From the NCBI GenBank assembly GCA_950295325.1, contig OX485804.1, positions 29,388,001 to 29,452,000 on the forward strand: a stretch of 64,000 nucleotides of DNA, in the 5' to 3' direction. The notes beneath the pieces were generated by a model that was given only the letters and a program-made list of their open reading frames with translations, did not search any database and had not been told where the DNA came from. Below are positions 6,435-60,649 of the stretch, piece after piece. Source of the DNA: Polytrichum commune (taxonomy: Eukaryota > Streptophyta > Polytrichopsida > Polytrichales > Polytrichaceae). The position numbers and the translations under genes are program-made. Within the stretch, counting starts at the first letter, position 1, and every line of letters begins with the position of its first letter.

Positions 6435-7266
6435 TCACAAGTTGAGGGAGCTGTGGATGAAGCCCAAGAGTGGGCCCTTCAAGTAGATGTTCTCCGTGAT
6501 GAGCAGAGCCACCAAGCCTATCATGGCTGCTCGCCCGTTCCACCTCTCGTTCTGCGCGTTGAAGGGCCCGTTGGCCCTGCTGTCGGGAGACTCTTTGTTG
6601 TACATGGGGATCAATGTGGCCCCGATGATGATGGGCGACACGAACAGGAAGTAGATCAACCCTCGCCCCTCCGTCACCTGCTCCCACACACTCTGCCCAG
6701 TCAAAATCTCCGCCACGAACGCCCACGTGATTCCCAACATCGCCAATCGGCTGTTGATGGTCTCCGGTGCGGGTCCGTCAAACTTCATCAGGCTGTTGGT
6801 ACTAGTGTTTCCATCCTCTGGGCGCCGCTCATTCTCGGGTCGGTAGAATTTCTCCACAGGGGAGCCTTCGAAGATGCGGAGAGGGTCATCCTTCTTCTCG
6901 GGATCGACCTTAGTGCCGGGCTGCACACACACAATGCATCACCGTCAGGCAAGTAGTTCAGCGCAAAACGTCCAAATTAACAAAAATGAAAAGAACACAA
7001 CCAGACATTCTTGTGGACTCCGTGCAAGTGCATGTAGACGTAGACGTAGGAGGAATTGGACTTACAAGAGGAGTGTCAGTGTCTTGCTTGGCGGAAACAA
7101 CCAAAGTGCGCCGCAGCTGCTGGCAGTTACCATACTGTGTGCCCTTCAATTCCAGTCCTGCGAGGAATGGGCTGCTAACTCTTGCCTTCACCTGCGAGGC
7201 TCCTAGCGATGGAAGCCCAGCCACTGTCTGCACACAACTCCTGCACAACACGGAGGAAGCTGCCAT
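6435..7266 (-). CDS. Early light-induced protein (ELIP-type chlorophyll a/b-binding protein), copy 2
   Basis: Exons 7266-7066 and 6920-6435 have the same structure as copy 1 at an offset of 6014 bases. The 228-residue product differs from copy 1 at three places: I6V and S8C in the transit peptide and R190Q between helices 2 and 3. The intron and about 100 bases of 3' flank are also nearly identical, with a 3-base indel in the 3' flank, whereas sequence upstream of the ATG is only partly alignable. All chlorophyll-binding residues (E120, N123, R125, E192, N195, R197) are kept, so both copies look functional. Expected role: thylakoid photoprotection, as for copy 1. Confidence 0.9.
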
Positions 7267-9383: not shown

Positions 9384-9742
9384 CTACACTAAATATGATA
9401 TTTAGTGTCATATGGTATTCAATGTCACTATGGCAACTTTTCGGATGACACTTCTTATGAATAAGTTTTCAAATACTGTCATGGATGGTGGATGAGTTCA
9501 TCCATTGGCCAAAACCATACCTTCTCTTGTTAGCAACTTGTGACGAAATATTGTCATGGATGATTGAAATTCAGATGAAAAATCACTTGGTAAATGACAA
9601 TAATTGCAACAGTGTAAATCTATAATACCCCCAAAAATTTACAAGGATTGACAAATAATGTTAGGTTAACATTTAGTGTTGGTGACGCTACATCGCGGTT
9701 TACAGTTAGTTTTGGTGACATTAAATATCATATTTAGTGTAG
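9384..9742. mobile_element. Short inverted-repeat element (MITE), 359 bp
   Basis: The outermost 27 bases at 9384-9410 are the reverse complement of 9716-9742 with one mismatch. The left terminus is itself a palindrome, ACACTAAATAT-G-ATATTTAGTGT, and the right one nearly so. TA dinucleotides flank a CACTAAAT terminus. There is no coding capacity. A related, longer and inverted copy lies at about 13231-13800; 9539-9742 and 13241-13463 align well as reverse complements. Confidence 0.6.
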
Positions 9743-10120
9743 TTGGTGTCAACATTGGAAGTGGGTGATTGTACATGCTAGACCAACGATCCTAACATAT
9801 CGCAACTAAGAACATCCGTTCCCTAGGGTTTCAGATGTTAGAGAATGAGTGACATTAAGGAGGGGCGGACGTTAAACCTCCCCCTATGATTTTGTTTGGG
9901 GAGGGGTCTAGGTTGGGATAAGGCCAGGGCCCACGGCTTGCAACCCCGCAAGCAGTCTCAACAAAAATCTCAAATTTCTTTTTGAACCCGTCCAAAAAAC
10001 GTCGCATGCCCTGCCCGATTTGAAAAAAAAAAAAAAAAGTAAAAATTACCCTTATAGTCTTGAAGGTTGCTTATCCACAAAACCCATATTGAGTGCACCT
10101 CACCTTCAAGGTCTAAAATC

Positions 10121-10137
10121 CTATCTATCTATCTATC

Positions 10138-10182
<45 letters not shown>
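10121..10182. repeat. Compound microsatellite (CTAT)n-(AT)n-(GT)n
   Basis: Uninterrupted tetranucleotide run followed by AT and GT dinucleotide runs, read directly from the sequence. Confidence 0.95.
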
Positions 10183-11171
10183 TCACTTAGTAAATAAGCA
10201 ATTGACTAGGATTGCATTTCTTAAGGGAAGTCGTCAACAAAACATGCAATTAACTTTGAGGTTATGAATATTAAAAAAATCCTCATTAGGATTGAGGTTA
10301 TGATTTTTGTGGTTTAGCCTTAGCTATTTTTTAAAGTAAACTTTAAATAATGTGCTTATTTTAGTTAATTCGTTTTATATTATTTTAATATAATGTCTTC
10401 TCTTTTCACAAGTATTCATACACATTCAAACTAATTAGGCCCAATTAAAGTAATTGAGCGTAATTAAGCGCAAGGTCTAAATTTATACAAGTTTTCATAC
10501 CCATTCAAACTAATTAAGCCTAGTTAAGTGCAAGTAATTAAGCACATTAAACCTGATCAAGCATAATGAAACCTATGCAAGTGTAATTAAGCTCATCAAT
10601 GCAAGTTTCTCAATTATAACATAATTAACTAAGTAAAAAATGATTTAATTATCTTAACTATATTAACTAACACATAAAAAATTAGCACATTATTTTTAGT
10701 TCATATTTAGAATGGAAAATGCTAAATTAAAAAATGTTAACCTCAATCTTGATGAGGATCTTGCAAATACTTGTAACTTCCAAGTTAATTGCCTAACTAT
10801 ATTGATGGTTTCCTTTCAGAAATGGAATTACAGTCAATGATTATTTATTAAGTGGAAGTGAACATATATATTGGATATTGGACCTTGAAGACATGGTGCA
10901 CTCTTATCTGGTTAACCTAAAACATTTAGGTTTCCCCTATGCAAACAATTTTTATTTTCAATGGGTTTTCAATGAATATGGCAATTCCATTATGTTTCAC
11001 CATCTATATTGAACACATTATCTAGGTAACATAGAATATGCTTGCTTAACCTTCAACCTCATACTCTAAGTACTCAATGGTACTCAAGGTCCCACCTCAA
11101 ACTAAGGTTCAATGTCTCATAACCTCTCCCATGAATTCTAAGTGTATGGCCATGCTTTCAAATTATCAACA

Positions 11172-11203
<32 letters not shown>
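11172..11203. repeat. (ATT)n microsatellite
   Basis: About ten perfect trinucleotide units. Confidence 0.95.
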
Positions 11204-11204
<1 letters not shown>

Positions 11205-12249
11205 GCAGCGGTGTTATGTCAATCCTTGAACACACACTGCACCTATCACAAAACACAAGCTATAATGGGCTCTAACGCATAGTTCGTATCCAAATGTGAG
11301 ATGTACACATCCTTAACAAACCATTGTATATCATTCATGACTTTAACTCCAAGAAATCATAAGATATTCATCTTGACTCCAAAAGTGGCAAGCTCGATTC
11401 CTAGTTTCTTCATTTGGATTGGGTGCAAGGATAATAAAGTGGACAACTCTTGATCCCTGCAAAGGTTAAAGTGAAAGTGATTTCAAATTGTATATTAACA
11501 ATGAATCATGCGTAGATCACTCTAAGGCATTCTTGTGCACCACGTGCGGCTGGGGTTTTTTTTGTTTTGGGGTTATTTACCTTCAAGGGCTGAATTAAAG
11601 CCTCCCTATAATTACTTAAATTTCAAAAATGGCCCATTTGTTTGCACCCTTCCATTACTTATATTGTCCAAGTCACTGCAATTTTTTGTACTCTATATTC
11701 ATTTTAAGTAATTTTGGACAGACGGAAATCCCAATTATCATTCATCCCCGTGAGTCCTAAACCCATTTACATACCATACTAAACATACCTTCTAGGATCC
11801 TTATCTTCAGCCCCTATATTAATTTTACAAAAAAATAATGGCCCATATTTTATGTCCATCTAACTTACTTATAATGGGATTGTCTACATTTAATGGCCCC
11901 TTCATTATTTGGAATTCCTTTATAATTTTTATTTCAAATGATTTTAATCTTCTTTATATTATGCCGCACGTCGTTTTTAAAATGCACTAAGTGATCTACC
12001 CGTGCAATGAATTTTCTGAAAATAAAGCACAACCATTCAAAAAAAAAATATTGATTCACAAAGCCAAGCAATTTATGTTAACAAGAGCAATTTCAAAAAA
12101 ATAAAAAATACATAGTCAAAAAAGACAATGCAAGTGGTGTGCAAGTAGGTGATATGGAACACGTGATTGTCTATAAATTGTCTTAAATAACAACATTACA
12201 TTAGTACATGGCATCATGAAACAAAATCCATTTTAAATAGCACTTTTCT

Positions 12250-12960
12250 GGTCCATTTTACCGTGGTGCACCCATTTCTTGATGTGCATATACAAGTTTT
12301 ATTGTGTTGCCAAACATCTCCCCTTGTTGAAATTCACATGAGGGTGAAAACACAGTAAAGTGGACAACTCTTGATCTGTGCCCAGTGTTAAGTGAAAGTG
12401 ATTCAATTTTATGTATTAACTTTGAATTTTTCAAAGAAAAAGACCATAGGCATTCAAAAAACACACTCATCTACAAAGCCAAACAATTTATGATGACAAA
12501 AAAAATTCCAAGAAAAGTCTACTTATTTAGAAGACGGTGCAAGTGGTGTGCAAGTAGGTGATATTGAACAAGTCACTATATAAAATTCGTTTAAAATATG
12601 ATGAAATTACATCAAATTGATGGTTTTCTGTAAAGTTTTGTGATGATGCCCTCAAGTAGATAATGAATTCAAGGAATATAAATAAAATTCCAACTTTAAA
12701 ATAGTGGAGGTCATGAAATTTACATCCAAAAATAGAATCAACCATTTTCTTTGAGCATCACTTTTGATGCTAAGTTTTGAAGATCTTAGCTTGATATTCT
12801 ACATCCGAGTATTTAACATAACAATGGATCGAGGTCATCATAAAAACATATTCCAATTTAAATAACGCTTTGCTACTACTTTTAGGCCTTTAACCCAAAA
12901 AATGATGGTTTTGATATATATACTGGAGCACTTTTTTGGTCCACGTAATCATGCTTGCAC
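12250..12960. repeat. Dispersed repeat copy (family also at 26000-26620)
   Basis: Long collinear similarity to 26000-26620, including AAGTGGACAACTC, TCTACAAAGCCAA, TGATGATGCCCTCAAG and GAGCATCACTTTTGATGCTAAG. It ends near GCACTTTTTTGGTCCA. No coding capacity and no clear terminal repeats; class unknown. Confidence 0.6.
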
Positions 12961-13230
12961 CCATTCATATTCTTTGCAATGAATATCTTTAATTTTTACC
13001 AAAAGAAAACGAAAAAGAAGGGAGCGATGTAACATCATTCAAATGCTTTTGTGTGCACTCTGCACATAATGTCCATATACTAGGTCACAATCCAAAATGA
13101 ATGCATCTACCTCACTCTAACTGAGAATTCATTCTTTGGAACTTCGATGTTAAATGAAAAGGAAGGCCCCATGAATTACCCAACCCTAGCCAAGCCAACC
13201 AACGGACGCCACTTGTCAGCACCTCAGTGG

Positions 13231-13800
13231 TGGCAGGCCACTACACTGTATTTAGTGTCACCAATTCTACATATTGTCTTGCTCGATACTAATTGTAAAC
13301 CCCAGTTGTAGTTTCACCAACACTAAATGTTAACCTAACATTATTTGTCATTCCTCGTAAAAATTTTGCGCACAAAAGATTTACAGTGTTGCAATTATCG
13401 TCACTCACTAAGTGGTTTTCCATGCAAGTTTCAAGCATCCACGACAATATTTCATGATAGATTTGTTAAGATGCAAATTATGCCAAACTTGTGTTACAAT
13501 AATCGGCGGTTGGATAAACTGAAAGTAAGTTGGGATGACATTATTTGTAAACTCATTCATAGAAATCGTCACTTGTAAAATTACCATGGTGATATAAATT
13601 ATCATGCAATATGAATTCTTTTTCTTTTTTCTTTATTTATTTTTGAAACACAGGAGGCGCTTGACCAGCTGCCTTGTTTCCAATCAAGTAGAGAGACGAT
13701 GTCACAGCAGGGAATCGAACCGCCAACCACTCCATTTGGATCGGGTACTTCTCCATTATTCAGGGTCACTAAATACAATGTTTAGTGCAGTGCCTGGCAG
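13231..13800. mobile_element. Related inverted-repeat element (longer copy)
   Basis: The left end (TGGCAGGCCACTACAC) and the right end (reverse complement TGCCAGGCACTGCAC) form terminal inverted repeats. Both then run into TTTAGTG motifs as in the 359-bp element at 9384, to which its left half is inverted. About 13640-13760 is extra and contains GGGAATCGAACC, the reverse complement of an RNA polymerase III B-box, suggesting a SINE or tRNA-like insertion. Confidence 0.5.
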
Positions 13801-14162: not shown

Positions 14163-17100
14163 ATGGTGGAGCACACAGACGAGAAACGGTTGGCTGAAGT
14201 TCTTGCTGCGGAGGATCTCGTCTCCCGCCACCTTCCCCTCTGCAGAGCCCTGCCGAAAGTGGAGCTTCACGCACACCTCAATGGCTCCATCCGGGCTTCC
14301 ACTCTCTTGTGTGCTCCTTCACATGCTCTATCCCATGCTATTTAATATGCTCTATAATAGTCATATCACAACATAACATTACCGTAATATGCATAACATA
14401 ACGTAACATAACATAATATGACGTTTCTACATGCTTGTGCCTGACAGTGGCACAGGGGTTTGCTATCCTGAATCCTTCAAATTACAATGTCACGTTTAGA
14501 AGCACAGAGACGTGCATTGCGGTATTTATTACCGGTGCTACCGTGCAGAGAAGTTGTTGTCTTTGTTTTGAATGCCACATTCGTATGGTCAAGAATGTAT
14601 TGAACTCCACGAGGTCCAGAGACTTGAGCTACAAAGCTTAGCACATTGAATTCAGCATGTCACTCGGGTAAGATTACTTGAATTCCTTCGAATTGCAGAG
14701 TACTTTACGTTATAATATGTCTACATGCTCGCGCCTGACAGTGGCACAGGGGTTTGCTATCCTGAATCCTTTAAATCACTGGGTCATGTTTAGAAGTACA
14801 GAGACGCGTATTGTTAAATGTATTACCGGTTCTGCCGTGAGGAGAAATTGTTTTTCTTGTTTTCAATGCCACATTCGTATGGTCAAGAATGTATTGAACT
14901 CCACGAGGTCCAGAAACTTGAGCTACAAAGCTTAGCACATTAAATTCAGCATGTCACTCGGGTAAGATTATTTGAATTTCTTCGAACTGCAGAGTACTTT
15001 ACGTTACAATATGTCTACATGCTCGCGCCTGACAGTGGCACAGGGGTTTGCTATCCTGAATCCTTTAAATCACTGGGTCATGTTTAGAAGTACAGAGACG
15101 CGTATTGCTAAATGTATTACCGGTTCTGCCGTGAGGAGAAATTGTTTTTCTTGTTTTCAATGCCACATTCGTATGGTCAAGAATGTATTGAACTCCATGA
15201 GATCCAGAAATCTGAGTTACAAAGCATAGGAAGTTGAATTAAGCATGTCATTTGGGCAAGATTATAATAGTTCTTCCAAAATGCAGAGTGTTATACTGAA
15301 GGATCTGCAATAGGACAATGCTCTTCTGACTATGACCTTCAAATATACGTGGACATGAAAATATCTTGGACTAAAGCCTTCTAGCGACTTAGACATTGAT
15401 TAGCTTCCAGTTTAGCCGTATAACTCACATCGCATGCACTGCTCTACTTATAACTGGTTTTACCTTAAGGAGAAGTTACAGATGTTGGTTTTGATGCCAC
15501 ATATTCATATGGTCAAGAACCTATTGAACTCCATGAGCTCCAGATATTTAATCTACCAACAGTAGAGCCTTCAATTAAGCATGTCTCTCGGGTAAAATCA
15601 TAATAATTCTTCTAAATTGCAGAGTATTTTACTGGAGAATATGCAATAGGACAATGTTCCTCTATGGATGGCATCCAAATAAATTCTGGAAATAAAAAAT
15701 CTGCATACAGGATATTTTTGGACTCAAACCTTCCAGCCACATAGACATTGATCAGCTCCGATGGAGAAGTGGAGATACCCCATTTTGTTTGCTATGATCT
15801 TGAAAGGGAGTTGGATTGAGACCGTACAGCAAGATGTTTGCAGTTGAATGGCTGTTTGTCCAATTGACAATGTTATCTGGCATTACTATTGATGAAGGAC
15901 AGGTGGATATTGATCTTCAAGGTTGCTTGTGTGCAGGGAATTAGCATATGAACATAGCAAGAATGGTGTAGTTTGTTATCCTGATTTGGAGTTCATAATA
16001 AAGAAAGGTACACTTGAGTTTCAGTCTCAAGACAATTGTGAGCCTTTTCAATGTCTAAAGTCTCAAAATTGGGGGTAAACATGCCGTGCTCTTGGGACGT
16101 TCTCTGATTCTGAACATAGCAAGAATGGTGTAGTTTGTTATCCTGATTTGGAGTTCATAATAAAGAAAGGTACACTTGAGTTTCAGTCTCAAGACAATTG
16201 TGAGCCTTTTCAATGTCTAAAGTCTCAAAATTGGGGGTAAACATGCAGTGCTCTTGGGACGTTCTCTGATTCTGAACTGTGTACCCCAGAATTTTCCATT
16301 TTCCATCCACTACTTTACTATTACATGTAGGTTTCTGTCTGAATATATGATTCAGATAAGTTTCTAAGCTTCAACATACTCTTGTTGCCATCCAGGTGTC
16401 CGTGTTTTCATGTGGTGCTGCATTTATTCATTACTTGACATTTTTTGGTGTTGGATGTCTATTAGACAGAAGATCACTTCCAGAAACCTTCCAGCTGTTT
16501 CACTTGATTCGTCTTGTGACTACAGATTATCATGTGATAACACGTATCACTCAAGAGGTAAAATGTAATGCCTTTAAGCTTTCAAAGTTGCACACTGGTT
16601 TTAGAAGCACGAATTTCTAATGGTTGGCATATAGGTTATTGAAGATTTTGCTGCTGAGAATATTATATATGTGGAGCTTCGGACAACTCCCAAGGTAATA
16701 CATTTCTAATCCTTGGTTGCTACTGTCTTCATCAGCCATACTTCATCTCCATGCTTCAGCGTTGGATCAAGTGTTTTGATTTGTTCGTTCAAGTTTTTAT
16801 CACCAATAAGGTTGTTTATATTAATGAATTTGTTGATTTCAGACCCGTTTGGGCAGATTTGCCCCACTTTGGGTTGATAAATACAATACAGTGAAGATTG
16901 AGACCGTAAGGGAGGACTGATGTTGCCTGGATCAATGACACCAATACCAGAACCTTATACCTAAGTAGTATTCTCTTTGCTTTTCTACTAGTTGGAAATA
17001 GATCTCATGACATCGCTAATGGGCAACAACTGACCTGAAATATGTGATGTGTGGGAGAAATGTCCAGTTTGGATTCTCTGTGAGCTTCTCTATGAAATAT

Positions 17101-33518: not shown

Positions 33519-34583
33519 GTGAGTTCCTTGTGTTGCGAAACAGGTTGTTTGTGGCAATTGGTTTTTGTGGGTTCTTTTTGTTTCACTCTATTATTTTAGA
33601 GTCGATGCTATCTGCATATCATCATGTGAATGTGCACTCCTAGTTATGCTTGCCAAAGTAGTTATGTTGTTCACTTTTAGCATCTGAGGTTGTGACAAAG
33701 GTCTGGTTTTTGGAAGTCTGCAACAATCGGCATGGATGCTGTCAGTTGTCTTTGATTATCCTTTGACAAACTTTTTAACTATGGCAGGTCTTTGAGCTCC
33801 TTACTGCTTGTTAAGCATCAACGAAATACTAGCTCAACTTTTTGGATTGGGCAATGATGAATGTCATTTTTAAAAGGCAAGTCAGTGATTTATGAGTAGT
33901 GTCTTCTCTTTATCTTGTGGAAGAACAGTCCTTATAGTACATGCAAATAGATGCTTGTTACAGAGGTACAATAAATTGAACTTATTCAATCTTGTAGTTC
34001 CCCTTAAAATTAGGATGTGTTGTTGCAAATAATGCAGTATTGTAAGATTTTCATTCAACTACAAGAGCATCTGCAGGTCGTGTAGATGCCTGATTAAGTG
34101 TAGGACTCCACTTCTGTTATGGAGGATTTCAGTATGAGGGGCTAGGAGATGAGTAATTAATGTGTTAGACACTGGTGCTGGTGCAACTAAGTACTAACAA
34201 ATGTTGCTGATATCTGTGACTTGATCTGACAGTTTCCTCTCTGCTGCAGAAAATATAAGGAATAGACCAATTCCCATGTTTTTCAACAAACAAGACATGG
34301 TGAGTATGTGAGTGTATGGAAGTTGTGTGATAAGTTTGAGATGAGCTGGCTTTCACCCTTTGAATGTGTTGTTCTCCCCCGAGAGTAGGACTACTCGTTA
34401 CAAAACCTTACAGTCAGGAAAAGTGTCTGTTTCCACTTGTGGTTCAAGACATACATTTGTTGATGTAGCCCACTAGGTAGCTGTTATGACATGACAAATG
34501 CTTGTAAGTCCATGTAATTTATTCAGGTATGAACAAGTCATTAACTCTGTCTTGGTGGATGTTTGCAGAATCATCACAAGGTC

Positions 34584-37500
34584 ATGGCTTCTACAAATGT
34601 CTGCTGCATTCTCCTGCTTGTAATCCTCTGCTGTGCATCGCCGTCTTATGGTGAATCGAAGGTCAGGAAGTATGGGCCATTTGAACTTGGAGGCAAAAAC
34701 TCAGATAATGCAGATATTATTCTGAGCTCTGAGAGAGTGCGCCAGCCAAATGGGCGACTGGGGAGGTCCCTCATGGATGTGATGGAAGATCAGAATAAAA
34801 TAGATGAAGTGAAACAGGAATGGAAACCACAGGAGGAATGGAAGTCGGAGGAGAAAAAGGAGTGGAAACCTGAAGAGAATAACGAGTGGAAGGCCGAGGA
34901 GAAAGAAGAAGAATGGAACCCAGAGAAGAAAGAGGAATGGAAGCCTGAGGAGAAAAAGGAAGAGTGGAAGCCTCAGGAGACTAAAGAGGAATGGAAGCCC
35001 GCAGAGAAGAAAGAGGAGTGGAAGGCAGAGGAGAAAAAGGAAGAGTGGAAGCCAGAAGAGAAGAAAGAAGAGTGGAAACCTGAGAAGAAAGAGGAATGGA
35101 GGCCTGAGGACAAAAAAGAGGAGTGGAAGCTGGAAGAGAAGAAGGAAGCCTGGAAGCCGGAAGAAAAGAAAGAAGAGTGGAAACCTGAAGAGAAGAAGGA
35201 GTGGAAGCCGGAAGAGAAGAAAGAAGAGTGGAAACCAGAGGAGAAAAAGGAAGAGTGGAAGCCAGAAGAGAAGAAAGAAGAGTGGAAACCAGAGGAGAAA
35301 AAGGAAGAGTGGAAGCCAGAAGAGAAGAAAGAAGAGTGGAAACCAGAGGAGAAAAAGGAAGAGTGGAAGCCAGAAGAGAAGAAAGAAGAGTGGAAGGCAG
35401 AGGAGAAAAAGGAAGAGTGGAAGCCCGAAGAGAAGAAAGAGGAATGGAAGGCAGAGGAGAAAAAGGAAGAGTGGAAGCCAGAAGAGAAGAAAGAAGAGTG
35501 GAAGGCAGAGGAGAAAAAGGAAGAGTGGAAGCCAGAAGAGAAGAAAGAAGAGTGGAAACCTGAAGAGAAAAAGGAAGAGTGGAAGCCCGAAGAGATGAAA
35601 GAGGAGTGGAAGGCAGAGGAGAAAAAGGAAGAGTGGAAGCTAGAAGAGAAGAAAGAAGAGTGGAAGGCAGAGGAGAAAAAGGAAGAGTGGAAGCCCGAAG
35701 AGAAGAAAGAGGAGTGGAAGGCAGAGGAGAAAAAGGAAGAGTGGAAGCCAGAAGAGAAGAAAGAAGAGTGGAAGGCAGAGGAGAGAAAGGAAGAGTGGAA
35801 GCCAGAAGAGAAGAAAGAAGAGTGGAAGGCAGAGGAGAAAAAGGAAGAGTGGAAGCCAGAAGAGAAGAAAGAAGAGTGGAAACCTGAAGAGAAGAAGGAA
35901 GAGTGGAAGCCGGAGGAGAAGAAAGAGGAGTGGAAACAGGAAGAGAAGAAGGAAGAATGGAAACCTGAGGAGAAGAAGGAAGAGTGGAAACAGGAAGAGA
36001 AGAAGGAAGAATGGAAACCTGAGGAGAAGAAGGAAGTGTGGAAACTGGAAGAGAAGAAGGAAGAAGGGAATCCGGATGAGAAGAAGGAAGAATGGAAACC
36101 TGAGGAGAAGAAGGAAGAGTGGAAACTGGAAGAGAAGAAGGAAGAAGGGAATCCGGATGAGAAGAAGGAAGAATGGAAACCTGAGGAGAAGAAGGAAGAG
36201 TGGAAACAGGAAGAGAAGAAGGAAGAATGGAAACCTGAGGAGACGAAGGAAGAGTGGAAACAGGAAGAGAAGAAGGAAGAAGGGAAACCTGAAAAAATGA
36301 AAGAGGAATGGAAGCCCGAGGAGAAAGATTCCAACTCAGGCAATATCAAGCATGAACAGATGTTGCAGGAAGGGCAAGCAGAATCCAACCGTGATGAAAA
36401 ACTCGAGTTGAATACAGAGGGGCAGGATGAACCTAAGACTGAGGAGCAAACACAAGAATTGAAACCTCAGGGAAAGGTAGAAGATGAGCCCCGGGAGGTA
36501 AAAGAGGATGTGAAGCCAATGGAAGAGGAGCTAAAATCATCAGAGAAGGATAAACTGGAATTTGGAAAAGAGAGAGAGGAGGACCAACAAGATGTAGAGG
36601 AGAAGTTGTTAGCTGATGCTACTGCCAAAGTGTGGGGATCAGAAGTGAAACAAGCTAGTCTGCCTGCAGTGAAGGAAACATTGGATTCTGTAAAAGCGCA
36701 AGGTGGTGCACATGTTGAAGAGCAGCCCAAGAAACTTGTTATTCAAGACAAAGTGCAAGAATCTACCAGCAAGGGCTCATATGGTACTGTGCTAAACCAA
36801 GTGCATCATGACAATCGACTTCCATGGGAAAAGAGCCTAGAGTATGACAAACTGGGCGTGGATATGTGGAGTCAGCATGGGTTGAAGCCAATAGAGCACA
36901 ATGGCTTCTCTTTACACAATGTAGATAGCCAAGATGACATGTTTTTGGGTCATGGTCAACATGAGTTTTATAAGGAGATTGCTGATAGGGAGCGTAATCA
37001 AGATGACTTTGAATTGGAGGCAATGGGTCATGTCAAACCTGATGAAGAGGAAGACTGGGAAGCCTGGGAAAAGAATGAAGTTTTTAAACCAGAGGACAGG
37101 CAGCATAAGTGGGATCACAAAGAAAGGAAATTTGTGGTGGTTAAAGATGCTGAGTTGAATCGGGTGGTGGACAACAGGGGTGGAGCCCTTGTTACTGATC
37201 ATCAAGGAAGCTTGAGAGATTGGGAAAGACACGAAGCAGTCAAGAGGGAAGTGGTGGGCTGGAATCATGAGCCTGAAAAAGCAAAGCAAGACAAGCTGGC
37301 TGTGAAGGACAACAGTGTACAAGATTTTACCCCTCACCGAATGTCGGGATCTGTCCCAAATGCAAGCGAGACCAAGCAGCAGTTTAATGGTGCCCAATCG
37401 GCACCAAAATCTGAGCTGCATATGAATAGCTCAGTTGAAGTAAGAGATTCTCAAAACCTTCCACCAAGTATCCAGAGGAGATCTGGAAATGTTGTGGAAC

Positions 37501-38153
37501 ACCTCACGACAAATATCAATGCTTTCTCAGACCAATCAAAGACATCTTTTGTCAAAGTCAACCAAGACTTAGCCACCTCTATTTTACCCCTTCTTGGAAG
37601 CAAGTATGCGCCTGTTTTTGCTTCTGTAATTTCATACTGCTTACTGCTGCTCCCCTTGGCGGTAGTCTTTTTCGTCTGCGAGCAAGTCCGGGAGTTCCTT
37701 ACCCTGCAGAAAGCTATCCTGTTCCTCAACATCTATCTTGCTGTATACTTTGAACTGCTGCTAATAGCAGCCTTAGGGCTGGGGACCGAACCCATGGAGA
37801 TTTTCCACAAGTATTCTCCTTCAAGTTACATAGTTCTCCAGCTCCTTCAGGCGATTGGCTACTTCTTTTATTTGGCTCTCCAGGTGGCAGATGTGGTCAC
37901 AACATGGCCTGATGGAACAAGTTTTGCAAGGTCATCAGCTTCAATACAACTGGCGGTTGGAGGAGTGATAGGCCTCCACTATTACATAACTGTGTTTCAT
38001 AGAGCAACACAAGGAATGGGGCCTGATACGTCCTGGAAAGCATATGCCTTTTACAGCATTGCTTACATGGTATTGTGCATCTTTGCCAGAATCAAGCGTG
38101 GTAAGAAACTATATCTTCCTGTGGGAAATGAAACTACAGATAAGAAGAACTGA
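34584..38153 (+). CDS. Membrane protein with about 56 Trp/Lys/Glu nonapeptide repeats
   Basis: One long coding exon of 1189 residues. The ATG at 34584 is chosen because it starts a good signal peptide (residues 1 to about 23, hydrophobic CCILLLVILCC core); an acceptor lies just upstream at about 34569, so a leader intron is likely. Residues about 78-582 are tandem units of the form EEWKPEEKK, with one Trp every nine residues and variants A, L or Q for P. An acidic region follows to about residue 1000. The C-terminal 190 residues hold about five membrane segments (near 1010-1035, 1045-1070, 1080-1105, 1115-1140 and 1145-1165) and end in a basic tail. I do not recognise the family. The topology suggests a large, highly charged lumenal or extracellular domain anchored by a helical bundle. 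Function unknown. Confidence 0.85.
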   Translation: MASTNVCCILLLVILCCASPSYGESKVRKYGPFELGGKNSDNADIILSSERVRQPNGRLGRSLMDVMEDQNKIDEVKQEWKPQEEWKSEEKKEWKPEENNEWKAEEKEEEWNPEKKEEWKPEEKKEEWKPQETKEEWKPAEKKEEWKAEEKKEEWKPEEKKEEWKPEKKEEWRPEDKKEEWKLEEKKEAWKPEEKKEEWKPEEKKEWKPEEKKEEWKPEEKKEEWKPEEKKEEWKPEEKKEEWKPEEKKEEWKPEEKKEEWKPEEKKEEWKAEEKKEEWKPEEKKEEWKAEEKKEEWKPEEKKEEWKAEEKKEEWKPEEKKEEWKPEEKKEEWKPEEMKEEWKAEEKKEEWKLEEKKEEWKAEEKKEEWKPEEKKEEWKAEEKKEEWKPEEKKEEWKAEERKEEWKPEEKKEEWKAEEKKEEWKPEEKKEEWKPEEKKEEWKPEEKKEEWKQEEKKEEWKPEEKKEEWKQEEKKEEWKPEEKKEVWKLEEKKEEGNPDEKKEEWKPEEKKEEWKLEEKKEEGNPDEKKEEWKPEEKKEEWKQEEKKEEWKPEETKEEWKQEEKKEEGKPEKMKEEWKPEEKDSNSGNIKHEQMLQEGQAESNRDEKLELNTEGQDEPKTEEQTQELKPQGKVEDEPREVKEDVKPMEEELKSSEKDKLEFGKEREEDQQDVEEKLLADATAKVWGSEVKQASLPAVKETLDSVKAQGGAHVEEQPKKLVIQDKVQESTSKGSYGTVLNQVHHDNRLPWEKSLEYDKLGVDMWSQHGLKPIEHNGFSLHNVDSQDDMFLGHGQHEFYKEIADRERNQDDFELEAMGHVKPDEEEDWEAWEKNEVFKPEDRQHKWDHKERKFVVVKDAELNRVVDNRGGALVTDHQGSLRDWERHEAVKREVVGWNHEPEKAKQDKLAVKDNSVQDFTPHRMSGSVPNASETKQQFNGAQSAPKSELHMNSSVEVRDSQNLPPSIQRRSGNVVEHLTTNINAFSDQSKTSFVKVNQDLATSILPLLGSKYAPVFASVISYCLLLLPLAVVFFVCEQVREFLTLQKAILFLNIYLAVYFELLLIAALGLGTEPMEIFHKYSPSSYIVLQLLQAIGYFFYLALQVADVVTTWPDGTSFARSSASIQLAVGGVIGLHYYITVFHRATQGMGPDTSWKAYAFYSIAYMVLCIFARIKRGKKLYLPVGNETTDKKN
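34815..36329 (+). repeat. 27-bp coding minisatellite
   Basis: About 56 units of a 27-base GA-rich repeat encode the nonapeptide repeat. Over 35200-35890 a 54-base dimer is evident (GGAAGCC type alternating with GGAAGGCAG type), showing recent expansion by dimers. A later block (35930-36290) uses GGAAACAGG/GGAAACCTG units. The unit contains no stop in several frames, so long open frames on both strands here are by-products. Confidence 0.95.
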
Positions 38154-54760: not shown

Positions 54761-55634
54761 CTCTTAAACTAAGGGCCACTTCACACACGAACCAAGGGCC
54801 ATGACCACGGAATGGTGAGGACCCTTGACTATCATCCAAAGGCCGTACCAAGGGTGATGGGCTACCCACTTTGTGTGGGGTCGGGTCCTCAAACATAGTG
54901 TGAAGTGAGAATGGACCATGTTGAGGGACCGTTGCATATTTTATTAGTGAGAAAAGAAGGGCAACCCTACCTCACTAGTTACTTATCTTCATTCTCTCTT
55001 TTCTCACTCTTTTTTTCGAGTTTTACATCGGTGAGGAAGGAAAGAGAGCACGATGGATCACATTGAGAGAAGAAGAAGGATTCTTGTTGCATTAGCTTTA
55101 TATTGGTGTTTGCACATGATTGTGCAGCATATGCTTGATATGCAAGCATTGGCACTCAATGGAGAATGGGAAAATGCCCTGATTTTGAGCATTTGCTTTG
55201 AGGGTATGAAGATGAGCGATCGTAGTGTATGGGCACACTACTAGAGATTGTGTACAATCTAGACATGTAACAAGACATTTATTGAAGTAAACAAAGACGT
55301 GATCTAATAGCATATATTACTAGAAAGTGTGTTGTCTACGACATGTCTTGGGGGACCATGCCCTACACCCCATGGATCGTCTATTTGGACATAGCCAATA
55401 TGTTTAGGACCATTGCTTATGATGTCTAAATATACTAAAAGTTTTACAGGCTCCAAACTAAATTATTACTTAACGTTAAAACGTGCATGCATGTGTAGGG
55501 CTATCATTGGTTGATATGTTGAATAATGAGTGGTCCTATTTTTTAACAAATGAGTGTCATTTAAAAGAGATATCCATCATTAGTAAGTCCAATCCTCACC
55601 TCTCAAGCCTTGCCATCTATAAGCACCTATAGTT

Positions 55635-55750
55635 CTAAGTGCCTAGCCACTTACCTAGTAGGCTAAGCCACGGGCGGGGGCCAAGGGATTTGATCCTTGA
55701 ACCTCTTGGCTCCCACATAGAGGCCTTAGCCACTAAGCCACCACTCCGCG
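55635..55750 (-). repeat. Possible tRNA-derived SINE head inside the CACTA element
   Basis: Read on the minus strand: TGGCTTAGTGGCTAAGG resembles an RNA polymerase III A-box region and GGATCAAATCCC a degenerate B-box, at tRNA-like spacing. No clear tail or target duplication was found, so it may be tRNA-like by chance or an old SINE. Confidence 0.4.
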
Positions 55751-55789
55751 CATGATATATTAGAAGTATTTAAAACATTTGTATATAGA

Positions 55790-56560
55790 GACCCAAATTA
55801 CTCTTTATTTTTTATTTATTGTATACAATATAATATCAACTATGTATGGCATATATTATTTATTGTCTATTATTTACTGCTTATAATTTATTATCCAATA
55901 TTTATTGTATGTTGCCTATTATTTATTATTAAGTGTATCGTATTTTCTATTTACTGCCTCGTATTTACTGCCTCGTATTTACTGTTTATATTATCATATT
56001 TACTATGTACTGCCTAATATTCATTATTTATAGTTTATAGTCATAATTTATAGTATTTATTATTTATTATTTTCAGTATGTTATTATTATCTATTCTATA
56101 TAGTATAATATTTATTATTTATGGTATGATATTTAATATTTAATATTTATAGTATACTGTTATTATTAATGGTTTGATGTTTTTTATTATTTATTATTTA
56201 TTATTTTCATTATGTTATTATTATCTACTGTATATAGTATATTATTTACTATTTATAGTTTGATATTTAATTTTCAATATTCATAGTATATTAGTACTAT
56301 TAATGGTCTTCTATTTATTATTTATAGTATTTTATTATTATATATTTTCAGTATGTTATTCTTATCTATTGTATGTAGTATATTATTTATTATTTACGGT
56401 CTGATATTTATTATTTTGTTATATTATTATATTAGTTCTATTAATGATCTGCTATTCTTATTTACTATTTATAGTTTACTATTTTTATTATTAACGGAAT
56501 TTTATTTATTATATAATGGAAATTGTCTACTATTTACTGTGTACATGATTTTCCATATAC
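55790..56560. repeat. AT-rich degenerate TATTTATTATT array
   Basis: About 770 bases of imperfect repeats of TATTTATTATTTATAGTAT-type units occupy the second half of the CACTA element. Confidence 0.8.
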
Positions 56561-58101
56561 GCCCTAAAAATTCCCGACCATAATTACACAATCTATTGGA
56601 CAAATTGTCTGATTGTTTATAAGACGATGTGAGGCGTCCTATAAACAACATCGGGGCGTCAATGTGTCCACAATGACTATTTTCCAACACTTATACTAGA
56701 AACATGTCGATTTCCTTTTTTTCATGAAATGTTGGTCCAATAAGCACATGCTTGCTAAAACACTGTACTAAAAACCCTTGTTTCTCTTGTAGTGGCATTT
56801 GAGAGAAATGTAGGGTTTACGGATGGGTTGTTATTGGGTTCATTCACGGAAGAAATGTTTAAACAAAGAACTCGTGTATGTCACAATACATTCAAGTTTC
56901 TTTGTGAGAGGTTAGGTCCATATTTGCAGAGGAAGAATACACAAATGAGAGAAACAATTTTAGTTGAGAGTAGAATTGTAATGTCATTACAAAGGCTTGG
57001 GACTGGAAATACCTTGTGTACCGTAGGAGAGGTATATGGGGTGGCCGAAAGTACAATTTCAGAAATAGTTCGATATTTTTGTATATTAGTTAGAGTTCAT
57101 TTGCAAGGGACTTTTGTGCAATTTCCAAGTCCAGCTCGGTGTAGGGTTCTAGCCCATGAATTTGAGGTTTTTCATGGAATTCCTCACATTATAGGAGCAA
57201 TCGATGGATCTCACATTCCAATTCTTACACCTGTAATTAGGGGAGAGTATTACTATTGCAAAAAATCGTTTCATTCGGCTTTATTACAAGGTATAGTAGA
57301 TACGAAATGTGTATTTTAGGATTACGAATTTGGATGGGTAGGAAGTATGCATGATTGGACATTGTTTCAATTGACAAAAGTTAGAAGAGATTGCATTAAA
57401 GATAAATTCTTACCTTACAAGTTGATTGGAGATTGCGCATATCCATTGCGACCGTGAATTTACAGTCCATTCAAAAGGTGTGAAGAAGGAGTAGAAGGTT
57501 ACAAAGCAAATTGGAATTTTATTCAAAGTTCCACCCGCATGTGTGTAGAACGTGCTTTCAGAATTTTGAAAGGAGATGGAGAATCATTATGAGAAGATCT
57601 GATATACCAGTACGGCATATGGCTGATGTAGTGGCTACATGTATTGTACCACACAATATGTGTACTATTGGAAAAGACAAATTTGATATAGAATGGATAG
57701 AAGAAGCTGAAAGAGAATTGAATAGACGTATAGAGAATAGATCATTGAAAGAAGGACAAGAAATGAGGGCTGAACTAGCAGCTATAGGTGAGATCATGAA
57801 TATTAGTATTACAGAAAATGATACAAGAAGAGCAGAAGTAGTTGATAGATATACTAAAATTTTCTTGATAAAAGAAAATAAAAAAGACGAAGATTTATTG
57901 ATAGAAACTACAAATATGCATATAGCAATAGCTAAATCTTTATGGCAAATCAAACTTCAGAATAATTCTAACTTGGAATTCCAGGATATGGATACAAATT
58001 CTGATATGAGCCTCTAACTATAACTTGTGTACTAAGGCTGCCATATGAGCATCCATATTTTTCAGTAAATCTGTTGTTGCCTGAAAATATGCAATCAAAT
58101 T

Positions 58102-59271
58102 TTAAGAATTACTGACTATCTGTTTTAGAAACCCTTCCATTTTGTCTTGAAATTTCTTCTTTTTGTCCTTTGTAGCGCTTGCCGGTGAATTCTGTTGTGT
58201 GGTCTGCATACTGTAATGGTCATCATCGTCTTGAGCACTTGCTGGCATCTGATTGACCACACTTGCACACTGTCCATTGCACATGTCCATCTGCTCATAA
58301 TGTTGACACTCTCGTCTATTATGTCCTGAAATTTTATTAGAGCGTTTATCATTTTTGTATTCTATAAGCAAGACCTTGTATTTCTTCTCAAATGCTAACT
58401 ATGTTCTTTCAAAATTACGCAGAGTGGATACCATACGAGTATGCAGTTTAATCTAAACATTCATTCATGTTCCATATTACATCAACAATAGAAGTCAGTA
58501 TAATAAGATACAGTAGAATACAAGGTAATGGGAATAAGTACAATATGCTAGGAACTCTATCAACTAGAAGAGAGGGACAAGTACGTCTATACCACCTACT
58601 AAGGACTTCACCCATAGCGAGGAGGTCCCGGATTCGGAGCCTGTCGCCATTGATTCTTCGAAGTCCTCAATGGGGGGAAAGGGGGGTATGGGGCAAAAGC
58701 CAAGGCCTTCAAAAAGGCCCAATTGGCCCAATTTGAATTTGAATTTTTATATTTTCATTCAATTTATGCTTTTGAAATTAACAACAATCAATCTAGTATA
58801 CAAATACATACCTTGTTTTCTTGCAGATTTGGCGAATTTCTCTTCCATCTCACCGCGAATGGCTATGAGAGTTTCAATCTCATAATCTCGCCATTTAATT
58901 GGAGCTTCTTCTTCACCTTCCGAATCTCCCAAATCCACTTCATCCACTTTTGCTGTTTTTTTGGGGTTCTTTTTGATTTTGTAGCTACTGCCCTATCTCT
59001 TTTCTTCTTGCCAATATCATCATCTTTCCTAGAAGTATCTTCTGCTTTTCCTCTAATGTTCACATCTCTACTGCTCTCTACATTTTGCGGCATTTTGTGT
59101 ACCAATCAACTCTACATCTTCATCAGCAAACAATTGAAATTTGTTGAAATTTCTATTTCCTAATGAGGGTCTGTGCAATCCGAATTGTGGTTGATTCCAC
59201 GACATCCAAGGAGAATTTTGGCTCCATTGTTGGGTTTCGGACCCACTCACATCTTGCGAAAATCCTGCCAT
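58102..59271 (-). pseudogene. PIF/Harbinger Myb/trihelix-like accessory gene (ORF2), decayed
   Basis: Minus-strand segments in shifting frames. 59271 leads with MAGFSQDVSG and an N-terminal region rich in Gln, Ser and Trp. 59105-58863 is a Lys/Arg-rich nuclear-type region. 58947-58800 carries the SANT/trihelix start (IKWRDYEIETLIAIRGEMEEKF), and a good donor (GTATGT) follows KQ. 58371-58102 is a Lys- and Gln-rich tail. Frame changes and an insertion in the intron show decay. In the family this protein binds the transposon ends and brings the transposase to the nucleus. Confidence 0.7.
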
Positions 59272-59482
59272 TGAAGAAGAAAAAAAAAATTGCCAAAAAA
59301 ATTTCGCTCAAAAAATTGTCTACTTCAATCGCACACACAACATACTCTAACCACTTCAACTTCTGGGCATGTAGGAGAAATGGCCATATGCCTCTTTTTA
59401 TCAACTATGTTCTGGAAAAGTTACTGTTGGAAAAAAATATTAAAATAATGCTAACAGCCATTTACAGCTGTTTGACTGCCAT

Positions 59483-59547
59483 GGTCTGCCGGAATTTGCG
59501 TCAGGCCTACCTCTTGGAGGTGGGCCTGACGCAAATTCCGACAGACC
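59483..59547. repeat. Perfect-type hairpin, 25-base arms
   Basis: Arms 59483-59507 and 59523-59547 are reverse complements with one mismatch. The 15-base loop contains its own ACCTC/GAGGT stem, giving about a 31-base-pair foldback. It lies 190 bases from the right end of the PIF/Harbinger element. Confidence 0.95.
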
Positions 59548-60241
59548 ATACACCCTTATCCACTGCCTGCCATGTAGGACTCCATGTAGACTTTTCATCC
59601 ACGAACTTTTCTTTGGTCTTTTAGGCCTCCACCTCCTAGTGTGAAGTCAACTTGGACGGTCCCCGCCTTTTCGACCAATGAGAGCTCTTCCTTTGCCGTG
59701 GTCATGGGCCTTCAGCCTTGTGTGTGAAGTGGCCCTAAATCTTGGTAGATGGAAGAAGGCCGGCTTTGTGTCCGAAGATCATAGGCAAACAATGAGGTCA
59801 TGCTGACTTATGAGAGTTCAATGCCACTTGACTATGCTCGGCATTCATACATGCACTCAAGGACCTTGATTCTTCATGAAAATTTATTCGTGAAGCTAGA
59901 TTAGAAAGAAATCATTCTTACCCATGCTTAAGAATGTTACTACGGGAATAATGAGTTTATGTCGACTGACGAGAGCTTCATGGCACTTGACTATGCCCGG
60001 CATTCATGCATGTACTCAAGAACCTTGATTCTTGATAAACAAAATTCCTTGAAGCTAGAATAGAAAGAGAAAGTCCTTGCACATGCTTATGAATGCTACG
60101 GGGAGAGAAAGGCCCTCAGTCTCGAAGCTTGTCGGGCTTGCGCTTTGAGTTCTGAGGATGTGATTTCATTTCTTGGAGGTGTTTGGCTTCATCGGCTGGG
60201 AAGGGAGCTCAGTTGAGGTGTTAGGGTTTGGGCTTAGGGTT

Positions 60242-60649
60242 ATGATGGAGCAAGTGCAAGATGATGAGTGGGAGGGCGATGGCGAGGAGTACGGGCTCCA
60301 GCAACAGCTCTACTCCAGCAAAATGCGTTTACACGACCGCCTCAAGGTTTCAACCTTAGCGACGGCGGAGACCACAGCTCAGAAACACAATTTGGAGGTA
60401 TCAAGCCTTGTCATGACTGCTCTTTCGGAGCTCACATTCAAGTTTACGGAGGTGCTGGCAACAGATACGGAACTCTTTGCACGCCATGCCGGCCGCAAGT
60501 CTGTGGTCATGGAGGATGTCCTTCTTGCTGCTCGCAGGAATGAGGATGTGGCTTCTTCGCTGCGTTCAATGGCAGAACAATTCGCCAAGGAAAAGGAGCA
60601 GCGGCCGGATAAGAGGCGCAAGAAGGGTCCTGCAGAAGCAACTACCTAA
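60242..60649 (+). CDS. Centromere protein S / MHF1 histone-fold protein
   Basis: Single exon of 135 residues starting at tandem ATGs (60242 and 60245); the length fits the CENP-S family (about 100-140). A short acidic start (QDDEWEGDGEE) is followed by a histone fold (about residues 24-107) with RLKVSTLATAETTA, SSLVMTALSELTFKFTEVLA, FARHAGRKSVVMEDVLLAARRN and SLRSMAEQF, then a basic tail (RPDKRRKKG). The protein pairs with CENP-X/MHF2, binds branched DNA with the FANCM helicase, limits meiotic crossovers in plants and sits at kinetochores. Good codon-level integrity suggests a working gene. Tandem repeats follow its 3' end. Confidence 0.88.
   Translation: MMEQVQDDEWEGDGEEYGLQQQLYSSKMRLHDRLKVSTLATAETTAQKHNLEVSSLVMTALSELTFKFTEVLATDTELFARHAGRKSVVMEDVLLAARRNEDVASSLRSMAEQFAKEKEQRPDKRRKKGPAEATT

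Follow-up and report, generated by a model that had tools for sequence, protein, structure and literature searches.

A transposon nest in Polytrichum commune: a PIF/Harbinger-type element very probably interrupted by a later CACTA element

The window considered here is the whole stretch of 64,000 nucleotides of Polytrichum commune DNA that was analysed. It holds a CENP-S-like ORF (histone fold), which spans about 60164-60649 with its first ATG at 60242; the stretch 60188-60646 gives the match, at E 5.9e-18. About 0.5 kb upstream of this ORF ends a nest of two repeat-bounded elements, the features of which are detailed in Table 1, and a 159-bp tandem repeat (1.9 copies, 59791-60099) lies between the nest and the ORF. 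Several other features are found further away. Two near-identical ORFs of 167 residues (421-924 and 6435-6938) have the appearance of a local duplication; a match to chlorophyll a/b-binding protein (5.3e-9) was obtained for the first, in keeping with a plant genome, and both resemble ELIP proteins. An open frame of 1202 codons extends from 34545 to 38153 and includes a 54-bp minisatellite (34848-36326) coding for repeats of the EWKPEEKKE type. A 294-bp tandem repeat is present at 14426-15265 (2.9 copies, 91% matches), and an exact inverted pair of 16 nt with identical 3-base flanks (ATT) delimits 9650-13349, perhaps a further element.

Table 1. Features of the two nested elements, in order along the window (positions are those of the window).
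Feature	Position	Strand	Basis or remark
Left TAA target-site duplication, outer element	54770..54772	.	Sequence read
Outer PIF/Harbinger-type element	54773..59735	+	TIRs, TAA duplications, transposase homology
Left TIR, outer element, GGGCCACTTCACACAC	54773..54788	+	16 bp, perfect
Interrupted transposase frame, first 61 codons (MDHIERRRR...SVWA)	55053..55235	+	Open frame, continuity
Left GCA target-site duplication, inner element	55233..55235	.	
Inner CACTA-type element, 1559 bp	55236..56794	.	TIRs, GCA duplications
Left CACTA TIR, CACTACTAGAGA	55236..55247	+	
tRNA-like segment in inner element	55676..55752	-	A-box/B-box pair; outer limits chosen by analyst
AT-rich diverged tandem array in inner element	55810..56526	.	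134-bp period among others
Right CACTA TIR, CACTACAAGAGA (minus-strand reading)	56783..56794	-	
Right GCA target-site duplication, inner element	56795..56797	.	
Rest of transposase	56795..58017	+	DDE_Tnp_4 region, two in-frame stops, frame change, C-terminal part lacking Pfam hits
ORF1, Myb/SANT-like, decayed (pieces in different frames, one stop)	58102..59271	-	Myb_DNA-bind_4 match
Right TIR, outer element	59720..59735	-	16 bp, perfect
Right TAA target-site duplication, outer element	59736..59738	.	Sequence read

The outer element is 4963 bp long as present, and 3401 bp after subtraction of the insert together with one of its two GCA flanks. Its perfect TIRs are directly flanked on both sides by TAA, in keeping with the footprint given in the sequence-only reading. 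The likeness of the two ends extends beyond the 16-bp TIR and reaches 40 nt at 85%, and GTGTGAAGT is found just inside each of them (at 54898 and 59639). The window contains one pair of inverted repeats that are identical over 12 nt, separated by 100-15000 bp and bordered by TAA/TTA duplications, versus a mean of 0.075 in 40 first-order Markov sequences of window length. A 3-bp TAA/TTA target duplication is characteristic of PIF/Harbinger elements. The motif G(N)5GTT is absent from the outer TIR, which reads GGGCCACTT, with CTT replacing GTT; to our knowledge, this motif is not a rule for the whole PIF/Harbinger superfamily. The TIR length lies within the range of 14-25 bp given for PIF/Harbinger elements in a study of Medicago, in which G(N)5GTT served as a search filter (PMC2213677). 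No second copy of the outer element was detected in the window when pieces of it were searched at E up to 0.01. A near-perfect hairpin (33 bp, 94% complementary, 3-nt loop, -60.6 kcal/mol) is located near the right end, at 59481-59549; no duplication could be seen at its edges on inspection by eye.

The family assignment is further supported by the coding content. On the plus strand, the frame 3' of the insert matches DDE_Tnp_4 over residues 135-259 (E 2.5e-16), with a score of 60.1 bits versus a cut-off of 24.8 when stops are set to X, as for an IS5-like DDE transposase. Taken alone, the fragment before the first stop reaches 14 bits, which is below this cut-off. HTH_Tnp_4 is seen only below its own cut-off, nothing in Pfam matches the C-terminal part, which starts at 57484, and a PDB sequence search returned no match at E up to 1. 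The frame contains two in-frame stops and a frame change, and the outer transposase gene would therefore be dead even without the insert. The second gene, ORF1, lies on the minus strand and converges with the transposase, at a position where a PIF-type ORF1 could be expected; according to PMC9710019, a Myb-like gene accompanies the transposase in PIF elements. The match of ORF1 to Myb_DNA-bind_4 (E 9.7e-4, 19.9 bits) is below the Pfam cut-off of 27. ORF1 likely contains an intron, with a predicted GT donor after ...KSARKQ near 58811 and the domain resuming near 58452.

Searched by themselves, the first 61 codons of the proposed transposase gave no Pfam hit. Their frame runs without a stop for the 67 codons that precede the insert, which has a chance of 1.1% for one frame, and the join across the insert reads ...SDRSVWA|FERNVGF... 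in the transposase frame. Because of this openness and continuity, the insertion probably lies inside the coding sequence, and the 61 codons from the ATG are likely to be coding rather than merely upstream of the coding sequence. The sequence-only reading had emphasised that the inner element is inserted in phase. The frame does resume after the duplicated GCA, but this is automatic: removing an insertion together with one duplicated copy restores any frame, so the resumption brings no independent evidence and was discarded as such.

The inner element begins with CACTA, its two TIRs (CACTACTAGAGA and CACTACAAGAGA) are alike at 11 of 12 bases, and it is flanked on both sides by GCA, a 3-bp target duplication as in CACTA transposons; here too, the footprint had been correctly read. 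Under a strict CACTAC rule, which tolerates a single mismatch between the 12-nt ends and requires an identical 3-base duplication, the window holds this single instance. A looser rule (6 nt, CACTA, 3-base duplication) was rejected as evidence, with two real instances versus 3.1 expected by chance. At E up to 0.01, Pfam returned nothing for any of the eight ORFs of at least 45 residues in the inner element, and no transposase ORF could be recognised among them. The best subterminal repeat is a 7-mer present four times in 520 bp, a count reached or exceeded in 51 of 500 Markov runs. The part occupied by the tandem array has a GC content of 17% (55800-56560). The window held no further copy of the inner element, whether pieces of it were searched at E up to 0.01 or its AT-rich middle, with masking, at 1e-5. 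This 1559-bp sequence was classed as a non-autonomous member of the CACTA group, on its ends and duplication alone.

Another origin of the inner sequence has to be weighed at this point, namely that it could have been fixed long ago in the outer family, as an intron or as acquired filler, and have spread together with that family, with the GCA repeats being coincidental. Its right end, TTTCTCTTGTAG, does resemble a 3' splice site. However, a pair of CACTA ends similar over 12 nt and bordered by the same 3 bases was absent from all 40 Markov sequences, and the exact borders are CA...TG, unlike those of a GT-AG intron, which makes this origin highly improbable. A further proposal combines the nest with removal of the insert by RNA splicing and with a captured Pol III promoter, making three layers. 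The candidate 3' splice site, TTTCTCTTGTAG|TG, ends at 56792, and a candidate GT donor, G|GTATGA, is found at 55203/55204, 32 bases 5' of the insert, in a matching phase (1 in 3 by chance). If the insert were spliced in this way, the join would be in frame, and ten residues of the outer transposase would be replaced by one. We consider this combined proposal very unlikely.

The two-layer nest itself, a PIF/Harbinger-type element later interrupted by a CACTA element, is very probably the correct description. The ends, the duplications and the DDE_Tnp_4 homology all bear out the initial assignment of the two elements to the CACTA and PIF/Harbinger superfamilies. The relative order it proposed also holds: since the inner element is nested within the outer one, the outer element landed first and the inner one later.

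The sequence-only reading had further suggested that a tRNA-like segment within the inner element might form a third layer. An A-box, TGGCTTAGTGG, starts at 55740 on the minus strand without mismatch, and a B-box-like motif, GGATCAAATCC, starts 44 nt on with one mismatch. This is the only A/B-box pair with at most two mismatches in the window, and none occurs in 15 Markov sequences, under a stricter consensus that was fitted after the site had been seen. With a generic consensus, three pairs are found in the window versus a mean of 0.65 in 20 Markov sequences. The surrounding region (55560-55760) has a GC content of 48%, versus 17-37% in the other measured parts of the inner element. Both the scarcity of such a box pair by chance and this local composition would fit a tRNA-derived SINE inserted in the CACTA element, on top of the same nest.

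Several results go against such a SINE. Neither ARAGORN nor Rfam calls a tRNA in the segment, so that a genuine tRNA gene was rejected for the inner element, and relaxed ARAGORN scores the segment at 35, versus 27-38 at six other places in the inner element. The families that Rfam did list (PhrS, and five families that are mostly microRNAs) scored far under their gathering thresholds and were attributed to chance. The flanks show no credible duplication, the one exact 8-mer being matched by 65 of 100 random sequences, and elsewhere in the window the segment has short and weak matches only (best E 0.45). The choice of the stricter box consensus once the site was known also weighs against this layer. 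The segment was not filed as a SINE because no flanking repeat exceeds chance: what stands of the initial suggestion is a box pair that is rare by chance, but neither a tRNA nor SINE borders. A SINE as third layer can be entertained tentatively, as a possible but doubtful addition to the two-layer nest.

A simple succession of events would account for the two-layer nest. A PIF/Harbinger-type element with two genes would have inserted at TAA, upstream of the CENP-S-like gene. Later, a non-autonomous CACTA element of 1.56 kb would have landed on a GCA within the 5' portion of the outer transposase gene, breaking this gene. Insertion was presumably of the cut-and-paste type for both layers, and the inner element may have been mobilised in trans by a CACTA transposase.

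The closest system for comparison is the PIF/Harbinger group of Medicago truncatula, described in 2007. These elements have two genes and a TAA/TTA duplication, and some of them carry nested insertions (PMC2213677). The outer element shares with them the 3-bp TAA/TTA duplication, a G-rich TIR, and a transposase combined with a probable orf1, which is located downstream of the transposase in some Medicago lineages, as it is here. The sizes are also similar, with Medicago core elements of 3,160-5,965 bp. There are also differences in the sections compared. The Medicago TIR motif G(N)5GTT is absent from the outer element; ORF1 lies here on the strand opposite to the transposase, whereas those sections give the order of the Medicago genes, not their strands; and the later inserts in some Medicago copies, although comparable in being nested, are gypsy-like retrotransposons and an unidentified 2,191-bp element with a 15-bp TIR and a 5-bp TSD, in contrast to the CACTA insert described here. 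In that paper, CACTA appears within a reference only (PMC2213677).

For the inner element, a useful reference is soybean Tgmt*, a CACTA (En/Spm) element whose 13-bp ends are imperfect and whose duplication measures 3 bp (PMC2613891). The two have in common imperfect CACTA ends of 12-13 bp, a 3-bp duplication and insertion into a gene. Unlike Tgmt*, which is 20.5 kb long, the inner element measures 1.56 kb, and has neither a transposase nor a clear subterminal repeat array (PMC2613891). PIF and CACTA families are both listed for grapevine in PMC2528002. No CACTA element inside a PIF/Harbinger transposase gene was met in the literature compared, of which the coverage was partial, and no claim of novelty is made. 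Viral contigs yielded six pattern matches and no relatives.

Nested insertions in plant PIF/Harbinger elements have already been published (PMC2213677), and the present case is an ordinary two-layer nest. It provides one clean relative order, with the outer element older than the inner one, and two family signatures that can be used for mining the genome. The general picture is unchanged, nesting being routine among plant transposons. On wheat chromosome 3B, 30,199 nested insertions were reconstructed, with up to 8 layers (PMC4290129). The Polytrichum nest resembles these wheat nests in that a later element interrupts an earlier one and that the order can be read from the borders; it differs from them in its depth, with two layers, both of which are DNA transposons (PMC4290129).
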